The translations under genes and the position numbers were made by a program. From an uncultured Christensenellaceae bacterium (lineage in GTDB: Bacteria; Bacillota; Clostridia; Christensenellales; UBA3700), in contig CALWHJ010000006.1 in the NCBI GenBank assembly GCA_944380355.1, positions 1 to 64,000 on the forward strand: DNA of 64,000 nucleotides, written 5' to 3'. Every line of letters begins with the position of its first letter. The first letter of the stretch is position 1. A model generated the notes under the pieces. It did not search any database. It was given only the letters and a program-made list of their open reading frames with translations, and was not told where the DNA came from. This document shows, in pieces, positions 71 to 21,812 of the stretch.

Positions 71-233
71 GGTACCGCCGAGAAGGGGTGCGAAATAGAC
101 TGTAAGCCGTGGATTTTGCGATGCTTTTCCGCGAGAAGGAAGAAGTAATACTTGCCGTATTACGATGACGCCGAACGAAAAAGCGCGGAAAAGACACGCT
201 TACAGACAGTGAGCACCCCTTCGAGGCGGTACC
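71..233. repeat. Hairpin repeat, family A copy 1
   Basis: This is an imperfect palindrome about 163 bp long. The outer arms (71-91 and 213-233) pair with one or two mismatches. Inner arms also pair: CTTTTCCGCG near 124 with CGCGGAAAAG near 186, and the TGTAAGC block near 101 with GCTTACA near 198. The apex contains AATACTTGCCGTATT. The segment TAAGCCGTGGATTTTGCG and the apex recur in the copies at 23.8-24.1 kb. It lies directly upstream of the cobalamin riboswitch, so it may sit in the promoter or leader of that unit. It has no coding potential. Confidence 0.75.
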
Positions 234-245
234 CAAAAAACGCAC

Positions 246-418
246 AAAGGTTGTTTCGGAAGCTAAGCTCCGTACATTAAAAAGGGAACAAGGTGACAAT
301 CCTTGACAGCCCCCGCTACTGTATCGGCTACAAGTATCCAAGGTCACCCGCAAGGGGAAGACGGATATGAGGTCTGAAGCCGTAAGTCAGGAGACCTGCC
401 TTTTGCGAACAAAACTTG
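246..418 (+). promoter_or_regulatory. Cobalamin riboswitch
   Basis: The region has the conserved landmarks of the adenosylcobalamin aptamer in order: AAAGGGAACAAGGTG (near 280), AATCCTTGACAGCCCCCGCTACTG with the B12-box-like GCTACTG (near 299-320), a GGGGAAG segment (near 354), and the 3' signature AAGTCAGGAGACCTGCC (384-400). A terminator hairpin follows about 50 nt downstream, and two genes compatible with vitamin B12 capture and uptake come next. The family normally shuts off expression when cobalamin is abundant. The outer boundaries are approximate because the P1 helix is weak by eye. Confidence 0.93.
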
Positions 419-5423: not shown

Positions 5424-8400
5424 TTATACCAAATCTATTACTACTTTGTAGCCCCAAGCGTCGGTATAGCTTACCTGATACTTAGAAGCCGTTTCCGTCT
5501 TAAGGTTGCAGACAATCTCTACGCTTGCGTTGTCGAGAGTCTCAACACCCGTATTTTTGAGTTTACCCTTGACGGTAGCGATACCTTTGCTCTCGTCTAC
5601 CACGATTGTGTAACCTCCTACGAAGTTATCCTTAGTAAGCGATATATTCGCATCTGTCTTCTCGCCTATGAGCGAATTGACGTTGAGAAGCAGATTGTAT
5701 TTGTTGACGGTAATTGCACCTTTATCGTAAGTGTAGATTGATTCTTCTCCTTCAATCACGTCAACCTTGAGGTTGTTGTAGCTCTTGACGATTTCGAGTA
5801 CGTCAGCCATATTGTCGACTTCGACTTTTTCACAGCCTGCTGCTGCGAATACCGCGCCGAATACAACAGCGGTCAAAAGCAATCCTGCTACTGCCATACG
5901 TCTGAGTCTGCTCTTCTTCTCACCCTTTTTGCCTGCGCTCAACGAAAGTGCGATAAGAGCGAAGCCTGTGCTGACAGAAGACATTGTCCAGCTTACTGCG
6001 ATTGCCGTCGAGCGATAACCCGCCATCTTGGAACCTGTCGACAACGCGCTGGAGATTGCTCCGATAAGTTCTCCCGAAACCTGCTCGTACTGAGCGAGAA
6101 GGTTTGCATAAGCCTCGTCGTATTCCTTGCTTTCGCCGTCAGGGTCTTTTGCGTAAGTCTTGAATACTTCGAACGCAGCTATATCCTCTTTGCCGAACGT
6201 ATCGTCGAAAGTCTCTTTGATGTACTCGTAAAGAGCGGCTTTGGTAATCTTCTTTTCGACAAGTACGGTCTTGCTCGCAAGATAGTTGTTACCCTCGTTG
6301 TACTTGAGGTATATATCGTATTTGTCACTCATACCCACGCTCAGCGTAAGAGATTCCAGCTTCTGCCACGACTTGTTGTCGAAGGAATAGTAAGCGTCCT
6401 CCAAACCGTTTTTGAGTTCGAAAGTAACCGTCTTGTAGCCTACGGTCATATCCGCTTCCATAAGTCTCGACGCCTTTTCGATTTCGTAGGTTGTGGATAT
6501 CGTATTGGACGAGAAGTTCTTAGCCGAATCTGTCGACAGCGTTGCCATAACGGTATACTTGCCTGCGTTTACGATTTGGCTTTCGCCGCTTGCAAAAGTC
6601 AATTCTATGCCGATATCCTCGATAGTAAAGTTTTCTTCTTCACCTATTACGGTATTGATGCGGAAGAATTGTCTGAAGTACTCCAAGTCTACGGCTTCGC
6701 CGTCATAAGTCTTGCCGCTAACGGTTTCGGGCGCACGTACAATAGTTACGTTTCTCTTCGCGATAGACCACTCGACGGGTATATCCGTAACGGAGCCGTC
6801 AAAAACGGAGTTGTCAATTGACCATACGCAGTTTTCTTTGTCGCGGAGTACGATATACGCAGTGTAGTTGCCTGCGTCCGTCTTGACGTTGTCGATAATA
6901 CCGTAGTACTCGCCGTCAATACCCGCGTCGTAAACAAAAGTCTGCTCATTGCCGTTGTAGATAAACGTCTGACGCAAAAACTCGTTGGGAGTAATCGAAC
7001 GTTTTTCGACCGTAAGTCCCGTGAGCAAGGCAGACTTTGTAATATCGTCTTCGGTATAGGTAATTTCGATACCTTCCTCGGTATGCTTTACTTCCATTTT
7101 CTGTACGGTAACCACAAAGTCGGAAACAGTCTTGTTCGTACCGTCGGTGTAGTATGCCGTAACTTCCATACCGTTTCTGTTGAAAGGCTCGAAAGCGATA
7201 TATGCAGTCTTGGAAGGCTGAGCAGTAATTTCTATTCTGTCAAGCTGAGCCGTAGATACGGTAACCACGAAAGTAGTATCCTCAACGCTAAGCGAAGTAT
7301 CGCTTCCGGTATAGTGTACCGTAATTACGGAAGAAGCCTTGCTAAAGTCGCCCGAAAGCTCATACTCTTCGATAACGCCGTATTCGCTGCCGTCATTGTT
7401 GTAGCCCGTAACGGTAAGATTGGACTTGATGCTGTCGAGAGGAGTGTTGGGATAAACAATAAGACCTTCCTGGACGAATACCGCTTTGATAGAAGCGAGT
7501 TCGACAAGTACGATATTGACCGCAAAGTCATCGGTAATTCCCTCATCCGCAAGATAATAGATATTGAATATCTTAGCACCCGTTGAGATTTCGCCTTCGA
7601 TTCTCACAAGCTCCGGCGAGATTGATTCGACAAGCGAACCGTCATTGTTAACGCCCGAGATGTCGAGGTAGTTTTTGATATCGTCGAGCGAGAAGCTCGT
7701 ATATATCGTTACGCCCTCCTTGACCTCAGCCGTTATGCTCTTGAGTGCGATTGCCGTTATGCTCAGGTTGTAATTGCCCGTAAGCGTATTGTAGTTTTTA
7801 GTATCCGTAGGCAGGAACTTCCAAGCGTATTCGCTCTTGCCGAGTTGCAAAACGCTGTCCGTCCATACGATAGTACCTAAGGTATCTCCCGCAGAGACGT
7901 CGATTTGAGGCATCTCGTGTCCGTCATAGAATACTTCGCCTTCTACCTGAGGATTTACCGTAGGCATAGCCTTTGCGATAGACCACGAGAATGTTTTGTC
8001 CGCCGTAGTCTGAGTATCTGCCCAAACGTAGTTTTTCTTGTCTACAAGTTTTACGGTAGCGGTATAATTTCCCGCATCGGTAGCCTTATTGCCGCTGACC
8101 GCGTACAACGCGCTGTCACCCACAACGTAGGTTTGTTCCTGAGTATTGTAGGTAAAGCTCTGAGCAGCGGGAGTAGGCACCTCTGCCGTAGCGGGCGTAA
8201 CAGTATATTTGATGCTTACCGAGCTTGCCTTGTAGTTGGTTACGGAAGAAGCGAGTTTTGCGGTGAGCGTATATATGCCTACGTTGCTGACCGTTTCTCC
8301 CGCACCCGTAACGGTTACCGCGAGAGCAAGCGCGCCTTCGGAAAGCACTCCCGCAGGAGCGGTAAAGTACGTAGCAAGTTCTTCCGAAGTAACTTCGCCT

Positions 8401-11400
8401 TTATAAGTCTTGACGACTTCGCTCTGATTTGCCGTAATGGTAACTGTCTTCTGAAGAATCACTATTTCGATAGAGGAGATTCTGTCGCCCGAGTAGCTGT
8501 CAGTAAGCGAAACTACTCTTACGGTGTAAGTACCTGCATTTACGGGAGCTGTAGCCGACCATTCTTCTTTGCCTTTGAGCGAATACTGTATTTCGTAGTC
8601 GCTTTCGCTCGCCGTCGTTTCGGTAAGTCTTGCGCCGTGTGCGAGACCGTCATATTCTACGTTGGTGGAGTCCGCAACGAGTACGCCTTCGAGAGGAGTA
8701 GCGATTACCTTGAGAGTTGCGGTATTGACATAGGTATAGTTGCCCTCGTCAAGTCCGTCGATAACGACCGTAACGCTGAGAGGATAAGTCGTATCCTTAG
8801 GGTCGCCGTATTCGTAGGTATTGCCGGGGTCGGCATAGTCTATGCTGATAGTGTAATTGTAAGTAGTCGAGCCTATCTCAACTTGCGTGCCCGACGTACC
8901 TCTCACGGTAGCCACAATGCTGCTTATATCGAAATCTTCGGTGGGAGTACCGTAGACTACGGTGAGTTCGCTGAAGGATATCTCGAGCGAATAGGGTTTG
9001 ATTATCATCTGCGCGGTAGTTACGCTATCCTCTGCAAAGACGTAGTTTTCGGAAGGAAGCTTTGCAGTAATGTTTACGCTTCCCGCGTTTACTCTGTCAC
9101 CTTCATACTCGAGAACGATGCTGTCGTCGAGGAAGAGTTGTCCTACGGTAACGTTGAATTCCGCACTCTTTTCTTGTCCGTCGAATACGAGATTGCCGGG
9201 CATTACGATTTCGCCCTTTATTGTCATCTTATTAATCGTCCATACGTAAGAGATATTGTCGGAATTACCCGTCGTCCACTCATAGTTGACGGAATCGTCG
9301 AGAGAGATAACGGCGGTATAGGACTTAGCCTCGGTACCCGTATTTCCGCTTACGGAATAATGCTCGCCGTCGAGAATAGCAAACGTCTGCAATTGACTGT
9401 TGTATATAAAGTGCTGGCTTTCGTCCACGTCGGGAGCGGCAACTTTGATTTTGTATACCGTAACCGAAAGGTCAACGCTCTTGCTGCCCGTAGTGTCGGT
9501 ATAAGTAAACGTAACTTTGGTTGTATCTATAGCAAGTTCGCTTACGCTTGCGCTGCAGCTCTCGGTAACGACCTTTCTTACTCCGTCGGTATAATATGCC
9601 GTGATAACCATACCTTCGGTGTTAAGAGTTTCGAATACCGTATAAGCCGTCTTGTGAGGAAGCGTAGTAATCTCTATTCTCTCGAGTACAACGCCTATTA
9701 CGTTGTCGATGTTAACGGTAGCGGTAAAGCCGTTGTAGCTTACGGTAATACTGCTCGTACCCGCCGTGAGCGTACCGCTAAGGGTATATTGCTCCTGCGT
9801 AAGAACGCTTGCTATACTTCCGTCGTTGTTGACTGCTTTGACTACGAGGAATTGTTTGAGGTAGTCCAAATCAGTGGAAGTATATATCGGGTCTTCGCCT
9901 GCCGTGTACTCAGCCGAAACGGAAGCAACTTGTATTTGCTTAACATTGATTGTAACAGTACCTTTTTCGGCAGTATAGTTGGTGGTATCGTCAGGCGTGA
10001 ACGTCCAGTTGTAGGTCGTGGTGCCGTAGACGAGTATACTTTCTACCCACGCGATAGTACCGGGAGTATCTCCTTCGCTCGTCGAGATAGCGGGCATAGC
10101 GTGACCGTCGAAGTAGTTGCCGTTTCCGCCGCCGCCTTCAACAACGGGAGTTACGAGAGACTCAGCCTTGTTGATAGTCCAAGGGAAACTCAAAGGCTCG
10201 CTCTTACCCGTATTCCACTGATAGTTTTCGGTATCGTTGAGCGTTACGGTTGCGTTGTAAGAGCCTGCCGTCGTAGCCTTGTTGCCCGAGATGGTGTATC
10301 TGGGATTGGTAGCTATAACGTAAGTGAACTCGCTGCCGTCGTACGTAAAGATTTGCGTCTCGGGTACAGGTGCGGCAACCTGTTGTTTGATAAGCTCGTA
10401 AGTGAGCGAAGCGGGCGTAGCGGTATAGTTGCCGCTAGCGTCGTTAAGGCTCATAGTAACGGTATAAGTACCTGCGTTGAGAATTTGGGTATCCTTGCCG
10501 CTTATGCTGATAGTAACCGACAGTGGATTGCCCTCGACGTCATTGGGGATAACGAAGTATTTGGTGATTTCGCTGCCCGTAACTACGTCCCCGTCGTACA
10601 TACTCGTAGCAGAGCTTTGAGTAGCCTCTATGGTAACCTCAAGAGCGTTGACGGTAAATTCTACGCTTGCGCTGTCGGATACGTAGTTATCCTGACCTGC
10701 GGCAAGGGTAGCCGTAACGGTATAGGTACCCGCATTGACTATTTCCCGGACAGTCTCGCCATCCTTGGTAATAGCGTAATCGTATACCAAAGGCGCGCCC
10801 TGACCTTCAGCCGTAACGGAAGAAGGTATATTGAACAGCGACGCAAAATCGGTAAACGCCTGACCGTCAAAGGTCTTGCTCTGAGGCTCTTTTGCAGTAA
10901 TATGTACTTCGAGAGCTTCGATAGTGAGCGTTGCGTTATCGCTTCTGGTAATTTCGTAGTTTGCATTATCGTCGGCGGTAGTCGTAATCTTTATAGGATA
11001 TACGCCCTTATTTTCCGTCGCGCCCTGCGCAAATACGGTGATACCTACAGCGTCTTCGGCCACAAATCCGTCGCCTCCTATTGTCACCTCGTAATCGGTG
11101 AAGTCATAGGGTTTTGCATCGTAAGTCTTTGTTGCATTCTCTACGGTGAGCGTAACCGACCTTGCCGTAACGGTAAGGGTTTTGTCCTCGCTCTTCGTAA
11201 TTGTATAGTTGGGGTTAGCGTCCGCGGAAGTCGAGATAACAAGCGCATATACGCCCTTATCCGCTTTTTCGTTTGTCGCGCTGACGCTCGCCGTAACTGC
11301 GTCGGAAGCTATGAAGCCGTCCATACCGTTTACGGTGTAACCGTTGAAATCGTACAGCTTGCCGTCATAAACCTTGGTCGCATTGTCTACGGTAAGATTT

Positions 11401-14400
11401 ACGCTCTTGGGATTGATTGTCAAAGTCTTGTCTGCGTCTTTGGCAATAGTATAGTTGGTATTGCCGTCCAAAGACGTGGTGATTACGAGAGGATAACTTC
11501 CTGCGTTTGCCGTAGCCGTAGGAGAAGACACGCTTACCGTAAAGTCGTCCACAAAACCTTCGGTACCCGATACGCTTACCGACGAGAAGTCGTATATCTC
11601 GCCGTCGTATTCCTTAACAATATTGTCTACGGAAAGATTTACCTGTCTCTTGGAAATCTGCATAGCAGCCGTCTGAGTAGCCGACGCACTGCCGTCTACG
11701 AGGAACTCGTAGTTTTCGGAAGGAAGATTTGCCGTTACGGTGATTTCTCCCGCATTGACGTTACTTCCCGAGTAATCGAAAGTAATCTGCTCGCCCTCTG
11801 CGTAAAGTTGAGAGCCTTCGGCAAACACGTAGGTAGGAACTTTCGCCGTGCCGTCATACTGCATATCGGCGGGCATCTGAATAGTACCCGTAATCTGTGC
11901 TTTGCTGACGGTGAAGTTTACGCTTGCGCTGTTGGAAGTATAATTGGTTTCGCTTTGGCTGATGTTAGCCGTAACCGTATAAACTCCTGCATTGATTATT
12001 CCCTCGGGAGAAACGCTGAAGTCGTATGCTATATCGTCTGCGAGCGCGCCTTGAGGCATATTGAACAGACTTGCGTAATCCGTAAACTCAGTATTGTCGT
12101 AAGCCTTGCTCTGCTGTGCTTTCGCGCTTATGCTTACCGCCATAGGCGTGATAGTATATTGCGCACTGATCACGCTGTCAGATGAGAATATGTAGTTGGC
12201 AACGCCGTCTACCGCAGGCAATATTGCTTTTGCCGTAAAAGTACCTGCGTTGGTATTGTCCCCCGTATATTCGAACGTGATTCTCGAACCTATTTCGGGG
12301 TCGGTTTCGTTGCCCGACGTAATATCGAATTTTGCCGTCTTGGCGGTGCCGTCGTAAACAAGACTTACGCCGTCCGCAAGAGATATGCTGCCCTTTATCT
12401 GACGCGCCGCCACGATGGTGTTTGTCGAGAGAGCGGTTATTATGTAGTTATCCGTACTGCCGTTGGTCATCGTTACGTTCTGAACAGACAAAGGAACGGG
12501 CGCGCCCGCATTCTGAGCGTAAGGCACGTATCCGGCTACGTCCCAGTCCTCGATAGCGTCGGGAGCTTGAGCGCCCTGAACGCCGTTTACTGATTTAATG
12601 ACCACGTCGGTATTTGCCGCCTTTACCGCCTCGAGCGTGTCGCCGTAGGTAATGTAGCTAGTGCTGTTGTAACCTATCTCGATAGGAAGTCTGTTTACGG
12701 TTACTTTAATATCTTTCGTAATATCCAAATATGCCGAACCCGAATCGAGCGTTACGGATGCGGGAAGGTACATTACTCCGTGAATAGGATTGCCTACTAT
12801 ACTCTTGCCGCCGTACGTATATATATTGTAATCGGCATTGATAATAGCGCTAGAATTGTAATTCAGGATATGCTCTCCTGCGTTTCTGTCGGGAGCAGCC
12901 TCTGTATATACGTTGGAAATAGTCAAGTTGTTGACAGAATCCTGAAGTCTTATGACGGGAGCAGTGATTAAGTTACCGTCGTAAAGTTTTTCGAAGTAAT
13001 TGTATTCTCCGTCGCTGCTCGTAGGCGTCATCGCCGTTTCTATGGCGTAAGTTCCCTGACTGACCTTGCTGTAATTGAGATTGACTTCTCCGGCAACACC
13101 CGCAGCGTCGCCCGCTTTGGCTACCTTTATCCATACGGGACCTGCGCTCTCGCCGTCTGCAAGAATAAGCTGGTCGGCTACTACCTGAGTCTGCGAGCCG
13201 TTTTTAATTTGATAAACAAGGTCGGCGGAATCGGGAGCTGCGGAATTGGCTCCGTAAAACCAGATATTGTCGCCGTCGAACTCGGGAGTCAATGACGAAG
13301 CGTAATTGATTAACGCATTGTAATCTTCGCTCGAACCCACAACCCATGCGTTAGAAAGTGAAGGAGAACTCGTATTGAAATATACGTTGGAGAGAGAAGC
13401 GAGATTGCCTTTGTCGGCAGTACCTACGATTATGCCGGTTTGCACTCTGGTTCCGTTGACGGTGTTTATTAATCCCATCGCATCTATTATGACGCCGTCG
13501 ATTGTCGTAACGTTTTCGTTGCAATAGCCGACGAGCATACCCGTATACATCTCATTCTTTCTGCTTGAGGTAGATGTGTTGTAATTGATAAAATTACCGC
13601 TACCCTCTATCCTGATATTGGAAATGTTGGTATCTCCGCCGTTGACCTCGCCTATAAGACCGCCGAGATATTGATACATCGTCCAAATAGTACCGCTGTC
13701 TCTCCATCCGTTGATACCAAAACCGAATGTAGTGCCTGCGTTGTTTACGAGAGTAAAATTGCTTATCGTACCGCCGAATGACTTGCCGGCTACGCCTCCG
13801 AAAATAAGATAAACGCTTGAAAACGTACTGTATCTCTGTCCGCTTTGGTGCATATAAAAATCAGATGCGCCGTTGGCGGCGGACGTAGGCACGTGATTGA
13901 GCTCCAGTCTTACGTTATCGACCGTACCGCCTTTGAGGTGTCCGAACATTACGCCGACTTCCATGTTACAGTTGTCACCGCCCGCGCTGAATTTCTGCAC
14001 GTTGATAACCGCGTTTTTAACCGTACCGGAAAGATATGCGAAAAGTCCTCCGTATTCGGTACTTCCCGAATTTGCGGCTACGTTGATATTGATCGTATAC
14101 CCGTTGCCGTCGAGAATTCCCGAAAAAGTCGTGCCGTAATCAAAAGTCGTTACGTCTATATTCCCCATCAGCATATAATTCCCGGTCGGATTGCTTCTAA
14201 TGTAAGAAAAATCACGGCCCGAATCACCGCCTATGGAAGTATAGTTTGACGGTTTATCCGAATCCGTGTATTGATGGTTTACCGAACCGTCTTCCGCAGG
14301 CGCGGAGGTTACGGCAAGATTAGTTACGCCGTCATTATTGCGTGCTGCCGACTCCGACATATTTCCGCCGTAGACAGAGATACCCGCTACAAGCACGACA

Positions 14401-14456
14401 GCCAGACAAACAACCACAAAAGTTGAAACGACGAGCGTAGTCTTTTTTATATTCAT
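5424..14456 (-). CDS. Giant cell-surface repeat protein fused to a lipoprotein domain (3010 aa)
   Basis: The start is the ATG at 14456 (AAAGGGGGA upstream), not the longer frame. Residues 5-30 form a signal peptide or anchor. Residues about 60-430 are glycine- and asparagine-rich beta-helix repeats (FSGILDGNGYTI, GGLIGEV types, GLUG-like). Residues about 620-2700 are Ig-like repeats of MBG/YDG type; three consecutive units at about 970-1190 repeat every 80 residues. Two Big_3-like units lie near 1590 and 2410. A helical segment follows (about 2735-2815), then a TM helix, the basic stretch KKGEKKSRLRR, a second hydrophobic segment ending in a lipobox-like AAGC (Cys2875), and a 135-residue domain matching the separate 159-aa lipoprotein at 15206-15685. 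There is no LPXTG. It is probably an adhesin or S-layer-like surface protein; the ligand is unknown. Confidence 0.9.
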   Translation of the reverse strand: MNIKKTTLVVSTFVVVCLAVVLVAGISVYGGNMSESAARNNDGVTNLAVTSAPAEDGSVNHQYTDSDKPSNYTSIGGDSGRDFSYIRSNPTGNYMLMGNIDVTTFDYGTTFSGILDGNGYTININVAANSGSTEYGGLFAYLSGTVKNAVINVQKFSAGGDNCNMEVGVMFGHLKGGTVDNVRLELNHVPTSAANGASDFYMHQSGQRYSTFSSVYLIFGGVAGKSFGGTISNFTLVNNAGTTFGFGINGWRDSGTIWTMYQYLGGLIGEVNGGDTNISNIRIEGSGNFINYNTSTSSRKNEMYTGMLVGYCNENVTTIDGVIIDAMGLINTVNGTRVQTGIIVGTADKGNLASLSNVYFNTSSPSLSNAWVVGSSEDYNALINYASSLTPEFDGDNIWFYGANSAAPDSADLVYQIKNGSQTQVVADQLILADGESAGPVWIKVAKAGDAAGVAGEVNLNYSKVSQGTYAIETAMTPTSSDGEYNYFEKLYDGNLITAPVIRLQDSVNNLTISNVYTEAAPDRNAGEHILNYNSSAIINADYNIYTYGGKSIVGNPIHGVMYLPASVTLDSGSAYLDITKDIKVTVNRLPIEIGYNSTSYITYGDTLEAVKAANTDVVIKSVNGVQGAQAPDAIEDWDVAGYVPYAQNAGAPVPLSVQNVTMTNGSTDNYIITALSTNTIVAARQIKGSISLADGVSLVYDGTAKTAKFDITSGNETDPEIGSRITFEYTGDNTNAGTFTAKAILPAVDGVANYIFSSDSVISAQYTITPMAVSISAKAQQSKAYDNTEFTDYASLFNMPQGALADDIAYDFSVSPEGIINAGVYTVTANISQSETNYTSNSASVNFTVSKAQITGTIQMPADMQYDGTAKVPTYVFAEGSQLYAEGEQITFDYSGSNVNAGEITVTANLPSENYEFLVDGSASATQTAAMQISKRQVNLSVDNIVKEYDGEIYDFSSVSVSGTEGFVDDFTVSVSSPTATANAGSYPLVITTSLDGNTNYTIAKDADKTLTINPKSVNLTVDNATKVYDGKLYDFNGYTVNGMDGFIASDAVTASVSATNEKADKGVYALVISTSADANPNYTITKSEDKTLTVTARSVTLTVENATKTYDAKPYDFTDYEVTIGGDGFVAEDAVGITVFAQGATENKGVYPIKITTTADDNANYEITRSDNATLTIEALEVHITAKEPQSKTFDGQAFTDFASLFNIPSSVTAEGQGAPLVYDYAITKDGETVREIVNAGTYTVTATLAAGQDNYVSDSASVEFTVNALEVTIEATQSSATSMYDGDVVTGSEITKYFVIPNDVEGNPLSVTISISGKDTQILNAGTYTVTMSLNDASGNYTATPASLTYELIKQQVAAPVPETQIFTYDGSEFTYVIATNPRYTISGNKATTAGSYNATVTLNDTENYQWNTGKSEPLSFPWTINKAESLVTPVVEGGGGNGNYFDGHAMPAISTSEGDTPGTIAWVESILVYGTTTYNWTFTPDDTTNYTAEKGTVTINVKQIQVASVSAEYTAGEDPIYTSTDLDYLKQFLVVKAVNNDGSIASVLTQEQYTLSGTLTAGTSSITVSYNGFTATVNIDNVIGVVLERIEITTLPHKTAYTVFETLNTEGMVITAYYTDGVRKVVTESCSASVSELAIDTTKVTFTYTDTTGSKSVDLSVTVYKIKVAAPDVDESQHFIYNSQLQTFAILDGEHYSVSGNTGTEAKSYTAVISLDDSVNYEWTTGNSDNISYVWTINKMTIKGEIVMPGNLVFDGQEKSAEFNVTVGQLFLDDSIVLEYEGDRVNAGSVNITAKLPSENYVFAEDSVTTAQMIIKPYSLEISFSELTVVYGTPTEDFDISSIVATVRGTSGTQVEIGSTTYNYTISIDYADPGNTYEYGDPKDTTYPLSVTVVIDGLDEGNYTYVNTATLKVIATPLEGVLVADSTNVEYDGLAHGARLTETTASESDYEIQYSLKGKEEWSATAPVNAGTYTVRVVSLTDSYSGDRISSIEIVILQKTVTITANQSEVVKTYKGEVTSEELATYFTAPAGVLSEGALALAVTVTGAGETVSNVGIYTLTAKLASSVTNYKASSVSIKYTVTPATAEVPTPAAQSFTYNTQEQTYVVGDSALYAVSGNKATDAGNYTATVKLVDKKNYVWADTQTTADKTFSWSIAKAMPTVNPQVEGEVFYDGHEMPQIDVSAGDTLGTIVWTDSVLQLGKSEYAWKFLPTDTKNYNTLTGNYNLSITAIALKSITAEVKEGVTIYTSFSLDDIKNYLDISGVNNDGSLVESISPELVRIEGEISTGAKIFNIYYLADEGITDDFAVNIVLVELASIKAVFVQEGLIVYPNTPLDSIKSNLTVTGYNNDGSEYGVIEEYELSGDFSKASSVITVHYTGSDTSLSVEDTTFVVTVSTAQLDRIEITAQPSKTAYIAFEPFNRNGMEVTAYYTDGTNKTVSDFVVTVQKMEVKHTEEGIEITYTEDDITKSALLTGLTVEKRSITPNEFLRQTFIYNGNEQTFVYDAGIDGEYYGIIDNVKTDAGNYTAYIVLRDKENCVWSIDNSVFDGSVTDIPVEWSIAKRNVTIVRAPETVSGKTYDGEAVDLEYFRQFFRINTVIGEEENFTIEDIGIELTFASGESQIVNAGKYTVMATLSTDSAKNFSSNTISTTYEIEKASRLMEADMTVGYKTVTFELKNGLEDAYYSFDNKSWQKLESLTLSVGMSDKYDIYLKYNEGNNYLASKTVLVEKKITKAALYEYIKETFDDTFGKEDIAAFEVFKTYAKDPDGESKEYDEAYANLLAQYEQVSGELIGAISSALSTGSKMAGYRSTAIAVSWTMSSVSTGFALIALSLSAGKKGEKKSRLRRMAVAGLLLTAVVFGAVFAAAGCEKVEVDNMADVLEIVKSYNNLKVDVIEGEESIYTYDKGAITVNKYNLLLNVNSLIGEKTDANISLTKDNFVGGYTIVVDESKGIATVKGKLKNTGVETLDNASVEIVCNLKTETASKYQVSYTDAWGYKVVIDLV

Positions 14457-14720
14457 AACTTTTCCCCCTTTAGATAATCGCGGCATAAAGCCGTACTGTA
14501 TAGAATCGGACGAAGTCCGCTTTTTCCCTTATACATAATATGCGCGTACGCGCCCGCGGTCGACAAACGGGAGAAAATTTCGATAAAAAATACTATCCCA
14601 CACGCACGCCTTGAGCGCAAACTACGACAAAACCCCGAAATTTTTGCATAATTTTGCATTTTTTCGGTATAAAAACTTTGATTTTTATATACTTTAGAAA
14701 AAAAATACAAGTATTTTTGT
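14457..14720 (-). other. Long 5' leader of the giant gene
   Basis: If the promoter at 14727-14755 is used, the transcript has a leader of about 265 nt. It contains a GCGGACTTCGTCCG hairpin (near 14507-14521) and a GC-rich patch with GCGCGTACGCGC (near 14541-14552) in otherwise AT-rich sequence. No known riboswitch motif is recognised. Confidence 0.45.
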
Positions 14721-14726
14721 AATAAA

Positions 14727-14755
14727 ATTTTATCACACGTATATGCCGTTGTCAA
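14727..14755 (-). promoter_or_regulatory. Sigma-A-type promoter for the giant surface gene
   Basis: On the minus strand TTGACA (14755-14750), a 17-bp spacer, and TAAAAT (14732-14727). The match to the vegetative consensus is strong. From here to the terminator at 15157 there are about 400 bp of AT-rich sequence in which I see no gene. Confidence 0.7.
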
Positions 14756-15156
14756 TAGCGATTTTTTAACGTATAGCCTAAATTTTTCTTAGATTCCCTA
14801 TAAAAAAACTGTTTTTTTTGTGCAAAGCACAATATATCGTTGCAAGAAAATCAAAACCTCAAAAATATTGTGCCGAAAAATTTTTTCGATATTTTTATTC
14901 TGTTTTGTCAAAGCTGGGTTTTCCCCTCTTTTTCCTCTATTATTACGCATTTTTAAAGGTGTTTTATCAGTCGCAAACAACCTTTTGTCCGCAAACCTCT
15001 GCTTCTAAGTTATGTATATACTTGCAAAAAGCAGCCTTAGTTTCTTAAAAATTATACGCAAACACTTCGCTGAACTTACCATTGAAAGCGCGTGCGATTC
15101 GGCATCCGCCTTACCCCCTATCTACCCTGCCCTTATGACTAAATCACTAAAAAAGA

Positions 15157-15180
15157 ACGGGCAGGATAATCCTGCCCGTC
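15157..15180 (-). terminator. Terminator of the second surface operon
   Basis: ACGGGCAGG-ATAAT-CCTGCCCGT is a perfect palindrome followed on the minus strand by TCTTTTTTAG, about 25 bp beyond the lipoprotein stop. Confidence 0.85.
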
Positions 15181-15205
15181 ATTGCAATTATGCATTTTTA
15201 TGCAC

Positions 15206-15685
15206 TTATTTGCTAAGCGTGATAACCACGTCGTAGCCTCTGGCGTCGGTATAGCTTACCTTGTATTCGCTTACGCTCTTAGCATCGAGGTCTGCCTTGA
15301 TGCTTACGTCAGCCGTTACGTCAACTCCGATAAGTTGAGCCGCATTGGCAAACTGACCGCTGAGAGATGCTTTGCTGCCTTCGATTTTGAATTGAAAACC
15401 GTCTTTGAAATCGCTCTTCTTAAGACGAAGTCCATTCTCTCCTGCTTTTGCCACTATAGCCGAAACGTCTATGCCGAGGTCGTATTCGTCGGTTACCTTG
15501 CCGTTGTCATATACATATACGACCTGCTCGTCCTTAGCAACTTCTACCTTGAGAGAGGTGCACTCTCCTGCATAACTGAGCGTAAGGTCGAGTTGGTCTA
15601 CGGTTTTCTCACAAGCAACAGCCGTGAAAATTACCGCCAAAGTCAGTACTATTACCGCAGTAATCAATATCTTTTTATTCTTCAT
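15206..15685 (-). CDS. Lipoprotein paired with the 2045-aa surface protein
   Basis: This 159-aa protein has a signal peptide and a lipobox AVAC with Cys25. The mature domain of about 134 residues is homologous by eye to the C-terminal 135 residues of the 3010-aa protein: both have a VYVYD/IYTYD strand, a KSDF/KDNF turn, and the closing motif YKVSYTDARGY / YQVSYTDAWGY followed by VVI.L. The ATG lies inside the last codons of the upstream surface gene (11-bp overlap, ATGAAGAATAA) and has its own AGGGAGG site, so the two are translationally coupled. No known domain is recognised. I infer an outer-face accessory or anchor factor for the giant protein. Confidence 0.85.
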   Translation of the reverse strand: MKNKKILITAVIVLTLAVIFTAVACEKTVDQLDLTLSYAGECTSLKVEVAKDEQVVYVYDNGKVTDEYDLGIDVSAIVAKAGENGLRLKKSDFKDGFQFKIEGSKASLSGQFANAAQLIGVDVTADVSIKADLDAKSVSEYKVSYTDARGYDVVITLSK

Positions 15686-18600
15686 CTTTCTTACCTCCCT
15701 TGCGAGCTTTTACGCAGAGTGTTGCAAGCGCGATACCTGCGCCGACACCCGTCAGCGTAAGAGCCGTAGCAACAGCCGCTTTTCTGCCTGCAAGCGTTGC
15801 GCCTGCACCGAGTGCGTCCTCAACGCTCTCTTTTGCTCCGTTCATAAGCGCGTTGTACTTAGCGTCGAGATTTGCGATAGCTTCGTCGCATTCCTCGCTA
15901 GTACCCTCAGCTGCCTGAGCAAGAGTCTTGACTGCGTTGTATCTGTCGATATCGGCAAAAGTGAATTCTTCGCCGAAGCTGTCCGCAATATACTCTGCCA
16001 CTATTGCTTTAGTGAGCGTGAGTTTAACTTCTACTGCCTCGCTTGCGAGATAGTTGGAAGTTTCCTTGTATCTGAGGTATACGGTATAGTTGAGAGATAT
16101 CTCTACTGCTATCTTGCCGTCTGCGAGCGCGCTGTAAGTCTTGCCGTCGGTAGAATACTCTACTTCTGCGAGATTGTCTGCGCTTACGTTGATAACCTTG
16201 TATCCGAGCGTTGCGCTTGCGCTCAACTCTCTCTCAGCCTTGTCAATCGACCAAGCAAAGGTCAAATCGTCCGTAGAGCCGTCTGCCCAAGTCGTGTTTT
16301 CCTTGTCGGTAAGAGTAAGGGTAGCTACGTAGTTGCCTGCTTCGGTAGCCGTATTGCCGCTTACCGTATATCCCTCGCCCTCAGCTATTACAAAGGTCTT
16401 TTGGCTTCCGTCGTAAGTGAGTTTCTGCTCTGTGTCTACTTGGGGAGCCGTAATTGCCTTAGCGTTTACAATGAGTATTGCATTCGTTACGTTGATTTCG
16501 TAGTTAGCGTTTACCGCGCTGTCGGGAGTAAGAGTTACGACGATATCGTACTCGCCCTTGACGAATACCGAAGGAACTTCCTGTAAGCCTACGGTGTATT
16601 CGAGATTTTCACCGTTGACGGTACCGCTTACCTGTGCGGTATAAGCCTCGGGAGTCTGACCGTAAACGATAGTCTGTGCGTCTGCCGTAATGCTTGCAAC
16701 TTTCTTTTCAATCGTCCATTCAACGACCGTGCTTGCGCCTTCAGCGTTTGCCCACTTGTAATTGTCGCTGTCGGTGAGCGTAAGAGTTATTTCGTATTTA
16801 TCCGCATTAGTTGCTTGTACGTCGCCGGATACGGTGTATTCGGACGTGCTTTCGATACCTGCGGACTGCTCGAGACCGCTGTATACGAACTGACCTTCTA
16901 CTACGGGAGCTTCGAGAGTCTTCTTGTCTACGGTAATACCTTCTACAGTCGCGCTCGCGCTCTCAGCGGTATAAGTTACCTGAACGGAAGTCATACCTGT
17001 TACGAGGTCGCTTACGGTATATTCGTCAGCAGAAAGAACGGTTTCGCTGCCGTCGTTGTAAACTGCCTTTACGGTAATGCCGTCCTTGAAGAATACGTCG
17101 CCGTATACGTAATCGGACTTGAAGCTTTCGTTTTTCTCAACAACTATGTTGCTGAATACTACTTCTTCTGCGGTAATCTCTACGCTGCCGGTAGCATTCT
17201 TGTAGTTAGGGTCGGAAGAGGTGAATACCCATGTGTAGGAATTAAGACCTGCAATGAGTTTAGCCTCTGCGTCTTCCCATACGATTACGCCTTCCGAGCT
17301 GCCCTCGCCGAGCGTAATTTCGGGAAGTGCGTGTCCTTCATAATAAGTACCTTCTGCAACCTGAGGATTTACGATAGCCTCAGCCTGAGCGATAGTGAAT
17401 GTAATCTGAGCAATCTGGTCAGCCGAGTAGTTATCTGTAAGGCTGACTACTTTTACCTTATAAGTGCCTGCGTTTACGGGCTTTTCGGTAGTCCATACGT
17501 CGGTGCCGTCAAGCGCGTATTCTATCTGATAATCGCTTTCGCTAACGCCGTCTACGGTACCGGTAAGAGTTGCGCCGTAAGCCGTGCCGTCGTAAACTGC
17601 GCCGTCATTGTCAGCTACGAGAGTACCACCCATAGAGGTTGCGATAACTCTTACTTCGACAGTCTGAGCGTAGGTATAGTTAGCTGCGTCTACTCCGTCT
17701 ATCGTGAGCGTTACGGAAAGAGTAAACGTATCGCCTACGTTAGCCGACGTAGTATAGTCTCCGTCTACCCAGCCGTTGTCGGTCAAGGTATAGGTGTAAG
17801 TATTTCCGCCTATCTGAACGGTGTTGTCGGTAGTGCCTTCAATCTTTGCGTCGAATACGAATTCCTGTCCGACTACAACGGTAATTCCGCTTTCGGAAGT
17901 ACCCTTTTCGTTGAAGTCGACAACGTATTCTACGGGAGCAACTTCTATCGTGCCCGTCGTAACAGCCGTATCTGCAAATACGTAGTTGACGGAAGGAAGT
18001 TCAGCCGTTACGCTGACAGCCGTGCCTACGTTGATTCTGTCGCCCTCGTCACCGTAAACGACAGCTATTTCGTCGCCGTTTACCATAGGGCTTTCGCCTG
18101 CAAATTCAAAAGTTGCGGTCTTTGCGGTGCCGTCATAAGTCATATCCGTGAATACGAGTTTGCCGTCAACGCTGATTCTCTCGACTGCTATAACGCCTTC
18201 GGTTACGGCTGTCGAAGCAAATGTATAGTTTGCGGAAGGAAGCTGAGCCGTTACGGATACGCTTGCACCGTAGTTGACTATGTCGCCCTCACCGTATGCG
18301 ATTATTATTTCGTCTGCGCCTATCATAGGGCTCTCGCCTGCGAATTCGAAGCTTGCAGTCTTTTCGCTGCCGTCATAGGTCATATCGTCGAATACGAGAC
18401 TACCGTCTACAACGACTTTCTCTACCGTAACGGTTGCAGCAGCTTCGTCGGAAGCGTAGTTGTCCTGTCCTGCGGAAAGCGTTGCGGTAACGGTATATAC
18501 GCCCGCATCCTTTATCTCATTTACGACAACACCGTCTTTCTCGATAGTATAATCGTATATGAGTTGTTCGCCCTGAACGTCTTCGGGCAATACAAACAAG

Positions 18601-21600
18601 CTTGCAAAGTCGTCAAATACCTCACCGTCATAAGTCTTAGTCTGACCCTCGAGTGCGGTTACGCTTACCTGTACTTTATCAATAGTGAGTTCGCTTACGG
18701 CATTGAATCCGTCTGCCCACTTATAGTTGCTCTTGCCTGCCTCAAATTCGGGAATTACTGCCGTTACGCTGTAGGTGCCTGCGTCAACCGCGCTTTTTAC
18801 AGGTGCGCCGTCCTTTGCATAAGCTACCGTAACTGCATCCTGTCCGTAAAGAATACCCTCGCTGAGCTCGAATACGGCAACCTTTGCAGTGCCGTCATAA
18901 AGCTTGTTTTCGGGAAGAATAACGCTTCCGTTGAGCGTAGCCTGTTCTACGGTGAACTGTACGCTTGCCTGAGCGCATTCGATATCGTTGACTTCCTCGG
19001 AAGGAATTACAGCGTCTGCCGTAATCGTATATACGCCGGCATTGATTATCTGCTCGCTGGCGTTTACGGTTATGGGGAAAATCTGAGAGAGGTATTCAGG
19101 TGCGGTAAACAATGCGTTCATCTCGTCCTGAGTCATTGCCTCGCTGTCATATACGGAAGTCAATTTTGCTCCGTCCTGCTCGGTTCCTATCGTAAGTACC
19201 GCTTTGTTGACGGTGTAAATTTCGTTAACGTCTTGAGCTGCATAGTTTGACTCTGCAAGACTTGCGGTTACCGTATATTCTCCTGCGTGCTGTATTACAG
19301 CCTCAACGTCGCCGAGCATCGTCTTGAAGTTGAGCGTAAGAGGATTGCCGTCGATATCTACGGGTACCTCAAAGAGGTCTGCAGGATTGAGTACGCCTCT
19401 GTTGTAATCGTGAGAGAACTGTACGTCCGCTTTCTTTTCGATTACGATGGTCTTGGGTGCAACGCTGAAGCTCTTGCTTGCGTTGTTGAGTACTACGTTT
19501 TCGTCATCGAGAGTTACGTTGACGACATAGTCGCCTGCATTGATTACTTCATCAACGGGCTGACCTTCTGCATCTGTATAAGAGTATACGTATTCAAAAG
19601 GATATTCTCCCTTGCCGTATACAGCGTTCATATGATTGAGTCCGTCGTATTCGAGATTGCTTACGCCGCCTATAGGTCCTTCGAGTACGAGTACCTGTAT
19701 CGTCTTGTCAACGCCTGCGCCGTAAGTTATCTCATAGTTGGAGTTGCCGTCGGAAAGTCCTATCGCACCGATTTTGATATTGACTACCGTGCCTACAGGC
19801 ATACCCTGTACGTACTCTTCGCCACCCGCGGTAATAGCGTATTCGCTAATCCACGCACTTGCATAGTACTGTCCGGATACTGCCTTGATTTGTATCTTGC
19901 CGATAATATCGTCTATGCTGTCATAATAGGTTACTTCGTTTGTTCCGAAGTCTGCGTCTACCGTCAAAGGAGCGGGCAATACTTGTACCTCGATATTCTT
20001 GTCGAAGTTCAAATCCAAAGTACCGCCGCTAGTCTGTACGCCGCTCTGAGGAGCGTATACGTAAGATGCAGAATCGCTGTAAATATAGGTTACGCCGCCG
20101 TAAACTGTCGACGAATATCCGCTGCCCGCGATTACTGCGTCCAAATCGGGTATAGCGGTATAAGTTGCGTTTGCGTCGATACTGTTGGCGCAGGTATATA
20201 CCCCCTCGAGAGAGCCGACCTTCTGAGAAGCATTGTCATAGAGTGCTACAGAGGGACTCTGCACGTTCTGATAGTCGTAATACTTTGTAGCCGTATAAGC
20301 CGAGCCGCTGTCACCCGTAATCGCGAGTTTGTCGCTCTCGAGTTTTACGCTGCCGTGTCCTGCCATTACTGCCGAAAGATTGAGATTGTAATTTTTTCCG
20401 TCAGTAGGGCTCAACGCAGGTACCGAAAGCCATACCGTCTCTTCGCTTTCGCCTTCTTTGAGCATCAGCGAAGACATTACGTATTGCTGCTGTCCGGCAT
20501 TACTAATTTTAGCAACGAGTTCGGCAGAATTAGGAGCAACCTTCTTCGCGCCGTAGAAAGCTATGTTTTCCTCTCCGTCGAATCTGGCATTAGCAGACGC
20601 GGGGAAAACGGTAACGCCGGAAATGTTATTCTTTTTACCGGATATCCACGACGTGCTGGCTCCTTCGACAAAATACATATTCGATACGCTGATCGGACCG
20701 CCGCTGTTGCCGTCCCAACCTACGACTATACCCACGGAAGTCTGGTCGTTATAGTTCATTTTGGTACGGATAATATTTGTATCGATTACTGCAGGATAAG
20801 AAATAATAATACCGTTGACATTGTAAGTGCCGTTGTTCATATATCCCACTACAAGTCCCGTCTTGGTAGCGTTGTATCTATAACTGCCAGTGCTTTCGTT
20901 GCGGATAGTAATTTTCGAAGAAGCGTTACCTGCAAAAGTAATGCGGTTAAGATTGACAGTACCGCCGCCTTCCGCAGACGCTATAAAACCGCCTAAATCA
21001 TGGAAACCGTCGCTGTGAGAGAAGAAGTTTCCGCCTGTTCTCCAACCGTTGATGGAAAAACCGTAATTGCCCGTAGTTACGTTTTCGACCGTGGTGTCCT
21101 CTATCGTGGTGTCGCCTTGAGTTTCGCCTATGAGACCGCCCAGTCGGATATACGCACCGTCACCTCTCGAGGTGTTCTGAAAGAAATAGAAGTCGGAAGT
21201 ACCGTTGCCCTCGTTGGTAGGACTCCATGCAAGCGTAACGCATACGTTGCTGAATACTGCGCCGCCCGTAGCCGAGCCAGCAAATACGCCGCATGAGGTA
21301 TCGTTGCTATCAGTACCAACAATAAACTTCGATGCCAAAACGGTAAGATTTTTGATAGTACCGCCGTCAACCGTTTTGAATACACCGCCTACCAAATCGC
21401 TGTTGGTGCTTCTGTTGGTAATATCGAGCGTAATCGTATAACCGTTACCGTCGAGAATACCTTTAAACGTAGTAGAGGTATCGACATCCGTAAGGGTAAT
21501 ATCTCCCATCAGGATATAATTACCTGTAGGATTTGCCTTAACCGCCGAAAAATCGTTGCCGGAATCACCTCCGATTTCGGTATATCCCGTGGTCGCGCCC

Positions 21601-21812
21601 GATTGCTTTTGCGCTACGGTACCGTCTTTGGCAACGCCGTTAGTACCGCTGTAGGTATTTACAGCCGTATTGTCGGTACCGATGTTGCCGCCTGCGCCTT
21701 CGTATACATTGTCGTACGCGCCCATAACAGCCATCAGCGAAAACAACAACGCTGCAACGAGCAATACGGCAACAACCGAAAGTACTGCGACTTTAGTTTT
21801 TTTGTTAACCAT
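15675..21812 (-). CDS. Large cell-surface repeat protein (2045 aa), paralog of the 3010-aa protein
   Basis: The start is the ATG at 21812, preceded by AAGGAGGAAAAGGATT. A signal segment (residues 3-26) is followed by a beta-helix region (about 50-390) with the same opening pattern as its neighbour (YTEIGGDSGNDFS, then GNYILMGDI, then FKGILDGNGYTI). MBG/YDG-like Ig repeats (KTYDG, MTYDGS.KTA types) and Big_3-like units fill about 570-1860. The end is a helical domain, a TM helix (ATALTLTGVGAGIALATLCV) and a basic RKGGKKDEE tail. No sortase motif is visible. The lipoprotein gene overlaps its stop codon. The two loci clearly arose by duplication, although repeat number and the 3' gene arrangement differ. 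Probable adhesin or surface-layer role. Confidence 0.9.
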   Translation of the reverse strand: MVNKKTKVAVLSVVAVLLVAALLFSLMAVMGAYDNVYEGAGGNIGTDNTAVNTYSGTNGVAKDGTVAQKQSGATTGYTEIGGDSGNDFSAVKANPTGNYILMGDITLTDVDTSTTFKGILDGNGYTITLDITNRSTNSDLVGGVFKTVDGGTIKNLTVLASKFIVGTDSNDTSCGVFAGSATGGAVFSNVCVTLAWSPTNEGNGTSDFYFFQNTSRGDGAYIRLGGLIGETQGDTTIEDTTVENVTTGNYGFSINGWRTGGNFFSHSDGFHDLGGFIASAEGGGTVNLNRITFAGNASSKITIRNESTGSYRYNATKTGLVVGYMNNGTYNVNGIIISYPAVIDTNIIRTKMNYNDQTSVGIVVGWDGNSGGPISVSNMYFVEGASTSWISGKKNNISGVTVFPASANARFDGEENIAFYGAKKVAPNSAELVAKISNAGQQQYVMSSLMLKEGESEETVWLSVPALSPTDGKNYNLNLSAVMAGHGSVKLESDKLAITGDSGSAYTATKYYDYQNVQSPSVALYDNASQKVGSLEGVYTCANSIDANATYTAIPDLDAVIAGSGYSSTVYGGVTYIYSDSASYVYAPQSGVQTSGGTLDLNFDKNIEVQVLPAPLTVDADFGTNEVTYYDSIDDIIGKIQIKAVSGQYYASAWISEYAITAGGEEYVQGMPVGTVVNIKIGAIGLSDGNSNYEITYGAGVDKTIQVLVLEGPIGGVSNLEYDGLNHMNAVYGKGEYPFEYVYSYTDAEGQPVDEVINAGDYVVNVTLDDENVVLNNASKSFSVAPKTIVIEKKADVQFSHDYNRGVLNPADLFEVPVDIDGNPLTLNFKTMLGDVEAVIQHAGEYTVTASLAESNYAAQDVNEIYTVNKAVLTIGTEQDGAKLTSVYDSEAMTQDEMNALFTAPEYLSQIFPITVNASEQIINAGVYTITADAVIPSEEVNDIECAQASVQFTVEQATLNGSVILPENKLYDGTAKVAVFELSEGILYGQDAVTVAYAKDGAPVKSAVDAGTYSVTAVIPEFEAGKSNYKWADGFNAVSELTIDKVQVSVTALEGQTKTYDGEVFDDFASLFVLPEDVQGEQLIYDYTIEKDGVVVNEIKDAGVYTVTATLSAGQDNYASDEAAATVTVEKVVVDGSLVFDDMTYDGSEKTASFEFAGESPMIGADEIIIAYGEGDIVNYGASVSVTAQLPSANYTFASTAVTEGVIAVERISVDGKLVFTDMTYDGTAKTATFEFAGESPMVNGDEIAVVYGDEGDRINVGTAVSVTAELPSVNYVFADTAVTTGTIEVAPVEYVVDFNEKGTSESGITVVVGQEFVFDAKIEGTTDNTVQIGGNTYTYTLTDNGWVDGDYTTSANVGDTFTLSVTLTIDGVDAANYTYAQTVEVRVIATSMGGTLVADNDGAVYDGTAYGATLTGTVDGVSESDYQIEYALDGTDVWTTEKPVNAGTYKVKVVSLTDNYSADQIAQITFTIAQAEAIVNPQVAEGTYYEGHALPEITLGEGSSEGVIVWEDAEAKLIAGLNSYTWVFTSSDPNYKNATGSVEITAEEVVFSNIVVEKNESFKSDYVYGDVFFKDGITVKAVYNDGSETVLSADEYTVSDLVTGMTSVQVTYTAESASATVEGITVDKKTLEAPVVEGQFVYSGLEQSAGIESTSEYTVSGDVQATNADKYEITLTLTDSDNYKWANAEGASTVVEWTIEKKVASITADAQTIVYGQTPEAYTAQVSGTVNGENLEYTVGLQEVPSVFVKGEYDIVVTLTPDSAVNANYEINVTNAILIVNAKAITAPQVDTEQKLTYDGSQKTFVIAEGEGYTVSGNTATEAGNYVATLTLTDKENTTWADGSTDDLTFAWSIDKAERELSASATLGYKVINVSADNLAEVEYSTDGKTYSALADGKIAVEISLNYTVYLRYKETSNYLASEAVEVKLTLTKAIVAEYIADSFGEEFTFADIDRYNAVKTLAQAAEGTSEECDEAIANLDAKYNALMNGAKESVEDALGAGATLAGRKAAVATALTLTGVGAGIALATLCVKARKGGKKDEE

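Follow-up and report, generated by a model that had tools for sequence, protein, structure and literature searches.

Two paralogous loci that encode giant surface proteins lie next to each other on contig CALWHJ010000006.1 of an uncultured Christensenellaceae bacterium, in a stretch of 64,000 nucleotides that is referred to here as the window and to which all coordinates in Table 1 refer. The window lies on contig 6 of a 1.6-Mb assembly (GCA_944380355.1, genome G000) that is 97% complete. Both loci carry a module of about 135 residues, which at locus 1 is the product of a separate lipoprotein gene and at locus 2 is the C-terminus of the giant protein itself.

Giant 1 is composed of a signal sequence, an N-terminal repeat domain, an MBG/Big_3 immunoglobulin (Ig)-like stalk, a membrane-proximal helical domain and a C-terminal transmembrane helix (TM1), which is followed by the basic tail KARKGGKKDEE (net charge +2) in a predicted cytosolic position. 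Its match to Pfam MBG_2 (PF18676) scored 32 bits against a gathering score of 25, which identifies it as an MBG-domain protein. The lipoprotein gene starts within the 3' end of the giant 1 gene, where it has a strong Shine-Dalgarno sequence of its own. Its product has, in MKNKKILITAVIVLTLAVIFTAVAC, the basic n-region, the hydrophobic core and the lipobox Cys of a lipoprotein. When this protein (P0003) is compared with the consensus [LV][ASTVI][GAS]C (PMC8048626), positions -2 and -1 fit and position -3 is A.

Giant 2 starts about 750 bp beyond the lipoprotein gene of locus 1. Its C-terminal part consists of TM1, a basic loop, a second helix (TM2) and the module, in one frame throughout; the codon of Cys2875 is at 5834..5832. 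Its MBG_2 score of 21.1 bits is under the Pfam cut-off (25). The separate and the fused module are 34% identical (BLASTP E 8e-24), and giants 1 and 2 match each other as paralogues with E 7e-87, a likeness far beyond chance in both cases. These findings agree base for base with the original prediction as regards the 2045-residue giant, the 11-bp-overlapping lipoprotein gene and its Cys25, and they agree likewise for the 3010-residue paralogue that ends in frame in the same domain with a lipobox Cys behind a hydrophobic core; all its coordinates and lengths were correct. The hydropathy of TM1 is 1.52-1.55 in the fused locus-2 proteins versus 1.7-3.0 in the other copies, and with TM2 in place this helix may be eroding. 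Two very long open frames run opposite to the giant genes on the antisense strand; they are probably a by-product of the codon usage in the repeats and not genes.

Table 1. Features of the two loci and further features of the window.
Feature	Position	Strand	Evidence or value
Giant 1, surface protein of 2045 residues	21812..15675	(-)	Sequence; PF18676 match, TM1 hydropathy
TM1 of giant 1, TALTLTGVGAGIALATLCV	15711..15767	(-)	Hydropathy scan, 1.78
Shine-Dalgarno sequence AGGGAGG of the lipoprotein gene, within the 3' end of giant 1	15694..15700	(-)	Anti-Shine-Dalgarno pairing -13.2 kcal/mol
11-bp overlap of giant 1 stop and lipoprotein start, ATGAAGAATAA	15675..15685	(-)	Sequence; relatives with similar overlaps, 8-26 bp
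Separate lipoprotein, 159 residues	15206..15685	(-)	Signal peptide 15685..15614; lipobox A-V-A-C25
Giant 2, 3010-residue paralogue of giant 1 with the module as C-terminus	14456..5424	(-)	Single open frame
TM1 of giant 2, IAVSWTMSSVSTGFALIAL	5946..6002	(-)	Hydropathy 1.54, borderline
Basic loop between TM1 and TM2 of giant 2, SLSAGKKGEKKSRLRRMA, predicted cytosolic	5892..5945	(-)	Net charge +6
TM2 of giant 2, corresponding to the signal-peptide core, ending in lipobox A-A-G before Cys2875	5835..5891	(-)	Hydropathy 2.37
Fused module, Cys2875 to C-terminus, 136 residues	5427..5834	(-)	34% identity to the lipoprotein; dN/dS 0.05, G000 versus G010
Internal ATG in giant 2	5895..5897	(-)	Anti-Shine-Dalgarno pairing -4.7 kcal/mol; no usable Shine-Dalgarno sequence
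Open frame antisense to the giant genes, 1426 residues	7905-12185	(+)	
Open frame antisense to the giant genes, 811 residues	16815-19250	(+)	
Cobalamin riboswitch RF00174, sole Rfam match in the window	233-414	(+)	88.7 bits

Searches with the module gave nothing convincing in Pfam, NCBIfam or PHROGs, nor among sequence matches to solved structures. The AlphaFold model of the mature separate module had a mean predicted local distance difference test score (pLDDT) of 92.2. Its best fold match was the LolA-type lipid carrier 8veh (Foldseek E 1.8e-3, probability 0.99), with a TM-score of 0.41, which is below the 0.5 that marks a common fold, and 11% identity. The modelled fold thus seems to resemble LolA weakly, and the module is probably not a member of the LolA superfamily.

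Pairing of the module with membrane-anchored proteins

A third copy of the module is present in the same genome outside the window (G000:C2:190304-190804, (+)), where it is fused to a frame of 1913 residues. The juxtamembrane and transmembrane domain occurs at three full-length places in this genome, and the module follows it at each (3/3). The locus pair, followed by the same alcohol dehydrogenase gene, recurs in two further species of this genus, the close relative G010 (contig CASERZ010000005.1, recorded as an uncultured Christensenella sp.) and G006, with the layout found in the window, i.e. locus 1 separate and locus 2 fused. Further relatives are recorded as uncultured Christensenellaceae.

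A profile of the module was searched in all 46 genomes of the host's family and yielded about 65 strong matches. Weak matches (E 1e-7 to 1e-4), which mostly covered signal-peptide columns only, were left uncounted. Classification gave 62 homologues with a lipobox (45 separate and 17 fused) and two separate ones without, 64 in total; G002:C21, which has undetermined bases at the junction, was left unclassified. G037:C1 was rejected as a fused copy: its open frame begins in non-coding read-through and the gene is separate. Several partner genes are cut by the end of the stretch or contig, so that their lengths are lower bounds.

All 47 separate homologues, of which 45 have the lipobox Cys, immediately followed a protein with a TM helix at its C-terminal end, either overlapping its gene by 8-26 bp or separated from it by a gap of 10-14 bp. 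Taken together with the fused copies, 64 of the 64 classifiable homologues lie behind, or are part of, a protein with such a helix, and a basic tail is nearly always present. It had been proposed that giant and lipoprotein work as a unit, and this was borne out in so far as the module always adjoins or is fused to a TM-anchored surface protein; in this Clostridia lineage the domain was not found mostly apart from giants. Subunits of heteromeric complexes were described to be over-represented among overlapping or abutting gene pairs (PMC10666635), and the fusion of the pair itself counts as evidence for a partnership of module and giant.

The two modules that lack the lipobox Cys (G017 and G022, genus g2) overlap by 11 bp with the gene of an MBG-like TM protein of 626 or 659 residues. 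The miniature pairs of genus g2 (L110:934-3286, (-), and L111:918-3390, (+)) offer a handy small model of the pair. Seven more distant relatives, from two other families of the order (f3 and f19) and from G025 in the host family, mostly followed a protein with a terminal TM helix. The distant relatives L147, L148 and L150-L153, in two other families, are also lipoproteins and mostly lie directly behind a C-terminal-TM protein, so that the pairing may be older than the host's family.

Fused copies and their lipobox

The 17 fused copies comprise three at locus 2 (G000, G006 and G010), 13 at a second locus type of the same genus, which includes the third copy described above and shows the fusion in 13 genomes of that genus, and a single copy from a different genus (G031), in a frame of 4520 residues. 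Fusion is recurrent: in a maximum-likelihood tree of the 62 modules the fused state requires three changes, and the starred branches force three. A single clade of all fused copies was rejected (approximately unbiased test, p = 0.0002), as was one clade of the fused copies of loci 2 and 3 (p 2.5e-5); the third event, in G031, is less firmly supported (p 0.02). The phylogeny thus suggests that the frames were joined on at least two, and probably three, occasions. As separate genes are spread over genera, the separate gene is likely to be the ancestral state, the tree itself being unrooted, and the ancestral order would have been a separate lipoprotein gene directly behind the giant. The ratio of non-synonymous to synonymous substitution rates (dN/dS) was 0.05-0.16 over the fused junctions and modules, which indicates strong purifying selection on both.

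In all 17 fused copies a lipobox Cys is present at the outer end of TM2, preceded by G or A at -1 (17/17) and by A, V or T at -2 (17/17). Within the two larger fused clades no change was found in the Cys column, versus a mean of 4.8 per TM2 column, and the Cys codon alternates between TGT and TGC. The basic loop before TM2 counts 18-28 residues with a net charge of +4 to +8 and resembles a signal-peptide n-region. One Lgt gene and one LspA gene are present in the genome of the window. The original prediction had spoken of a 'former' lipobox in the fused form. The hydrophobic core and the Cys are indeed there; the word 'former' is doubtful, because all fused copies have retained this lipobox, so that it may not be a relic.

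Probable processing of the fused protein and its alternatives

In the Christensenellales, the module would partner a family of surface proteins that have an Ig stalk and a TM anchor; TM1 would hold the giant in the membrane, and the basic tail of the giant would lie inside. Where the genes are separate, the lipoprotein would be made from its own start, probably by translational coupling, and be lipid-anchored beside the foot of the stalk. On fusion, its signal peptide would have turned into TM2 behind a basic cytosolic loop, so that the module should still emerge on the outer face; that both forms place it there, as had been suggested, is thus also what the topology predicts. Lgt would lipidate the internal Cys and LspA would cut before it, treating TM2 as a signal peptide. 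This route is the most likely one because the Cys and the small residue preceding it are kept in every fused copy. One precursor would then yield a TM-anchored giant and a lipoprotein in a 1:1 ratio, matching the products of the two-gene form. We favour, with a probability of about 0.6, the reading in which the giant stalk has the module as its obligate, membrane-proximal lipoprotein partner, possibly an accessory or cap at the stalk foot, and in which the fused copies of the module are probably lipidated by Lgt and cut by LspA.

Several points weigh against this reading. The -3 position of the fused copies is mostly F, which is off the [LV] of the consensus (PMC8048626), although F and A are also common in the separate genes, where A, L, F, M or I occur across the family. 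The significance of the unchanged Cys column (Poisson P 0.008) is moderate and disregards the general slowness of cysteine columns. TM1 of the locus-2 fusions is borderline (1.52-1.55), and should it fail to cross the membrane, the module would point to the inside. Lipidation appears not to be essential for every member, because the modules of G017 and G022 lack the Cys. Furthermore, the literature searched contained no natural fusion with an internal lipobox processed by LspA, which is no proof that none exists, and the processing by Lgt and LspA is deduced from sequence and predictions.

It is possible, albeit clearly less probable, that the fused protein always remains intact. A permanent hairpin of TM1 and TM2 would then tether the module as in OpuA-type importers, with the Cys lipidated but uncut or kept for another reason. 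The F at -3 of most fused lipoboxes would suit such a protein. However, the Cys is retained 17/17 with G or A at -1 in three separate lineages, while no other TM2 column is invariant, and OpuA is natively cysteine-free (PMC11065425).

Translation of the module from an internal start, for instance the ATG at 5897 that was put forward in the original prediction, would also provide a separate lipoprotein from the fused gene. In G000, G010 and G006 an ATG precedes the Cys by 21 codons. The strength of the pairing with the anti-Shine-Dalgarno sequence does not agree with its use: at the starts of the 45 separate genes the median is -11.8 kcal/mol (range -15.0 to -7.5), whereas the best ATG of the 17 fused junctions has a median of -1.9 kcal/mol and none is stronger than -6.0, the ATG at 5897 reaching -4.7. 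Besides, no ATG is in range at 5/17 fused junctions, and no ATG, GTG or TTG at 2/17. Some junctions have a GTG further upstream with stronger pairing, up to -8.9 kcal/mol in G031 (34 codons before the Cys), but these GTGs are not at the start place of the separate genes. The separate start has been lost on fusion. As the pairing is weak and an ATG is not always present, internal initiation is improbable in the fused copies, that at 5897 included.

A still smaller chance is given to the module being a mere neighbour without a functional tie to the giant. It has no match to a known domain family, but the placement of 64/64 family homologues and of most of the seven distant relatives behind a TM-helix-ending protein, and the recurrence of the fusion, argue for a tie. 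An error of sequencing or assembly, with a base lost in the overlap, can practically be dismissed as the origin of the fusion: the named relatives are also assemblies from uncultured organisms, but the orthologous locus is fused in three species, the same frame is found in G010, G006 and 14 further copies (17 fused frames in the family), a frameshift splitting the open reading frames did not emerge, and the junction has a basic loop of 18-28 residues, no remnant of the overlap and a dN/dS of 0.05. Programmed frameshifting at the overlap was likewise weighed and rejected; the length and letters of the overlap vary, members of the gap type have no overlap, and no conserved slippery motif was seen.

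Comparison with known systems

The statement that no described system exchanges overlap for fusion was too strong, because a swap of a lipid-anchored for a fused protein has been described for OpuA-type ATP-binding cassette (ABC) importers, in which the binding domain is covalently linked behind a TM anchoring sequence, while in other importers it is a lipid-anchored protein (PMC11065425). Like OpuA and GlnPQ, the module has a separate lipid-anchored homologue elsewhere and a TM anchor before the fused outer-face domain. The partner of OpuA is a permease, whereas that of the module is a giant stalk; no sequence relation was found, and the Pfam matches listed included neither a permease nor a substrate-binding domain. 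Lacking cysteine, OpuA cannot be cut at a lipobox, in contrast to the fused modules with their conserved Cys.

The giants resemble MBG/Big_3 surface proteins by their repeat stalk, with giant 1 passing the MBG_2 threshold, but the coupled juxtamembrane helical domain and the lipoprotein partner lie outside the MBG/Big_3 definition. A parallel to the proposed processing is the cytochrome b/c1 fusion gene fbcH of Bradyrhizobium. Two membrane-protein genes that are neighbours in relatives have there become a single gene, and signal peptidase I cleaves the precursor at an internal signal sequence, so that both proteins are still obtained. There the proteins are respiratory and the enzyme is signal peptidase I, whereas the module fusions would use the lipoprotein pathway. 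Like ordinary substrates of Lgt and LspA, the separate form has a basic n-region, a hydrophobic core and a lipobox Cys, and both enzymes are encoded in the genome; in the fused form, however, this signal sits within a membrane protein, about 2870 residues from the N-terminus. The recognition of a lipobox has been defined for signal peptides at the N-terminus.

With about even confidence the Christensenellales giants can be regarded as natural polyproteins of the lipoprotein pathway, in which an internal lipobox would be lipidated by Lgt and cut by LspA, freeing a stoichiometric lipoprotein partner from the C-terminus of a protein of 1900-4500 residues, and which would have arisen on two or three occasions from genes that overlapped or abutted. 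If the fused proteins are indeed processed, Lgt and LspA would be shown to be able to act on an internal helix and to make two membrane proteins out of one. The overlapping, abutting and fused forms, together with the two members without a lipobox, constitute a comparative series for the question why both proteins must be made together. The module itself is an undescribed, lineage-wide partner protein of giant surface stalks of gut bacteria.
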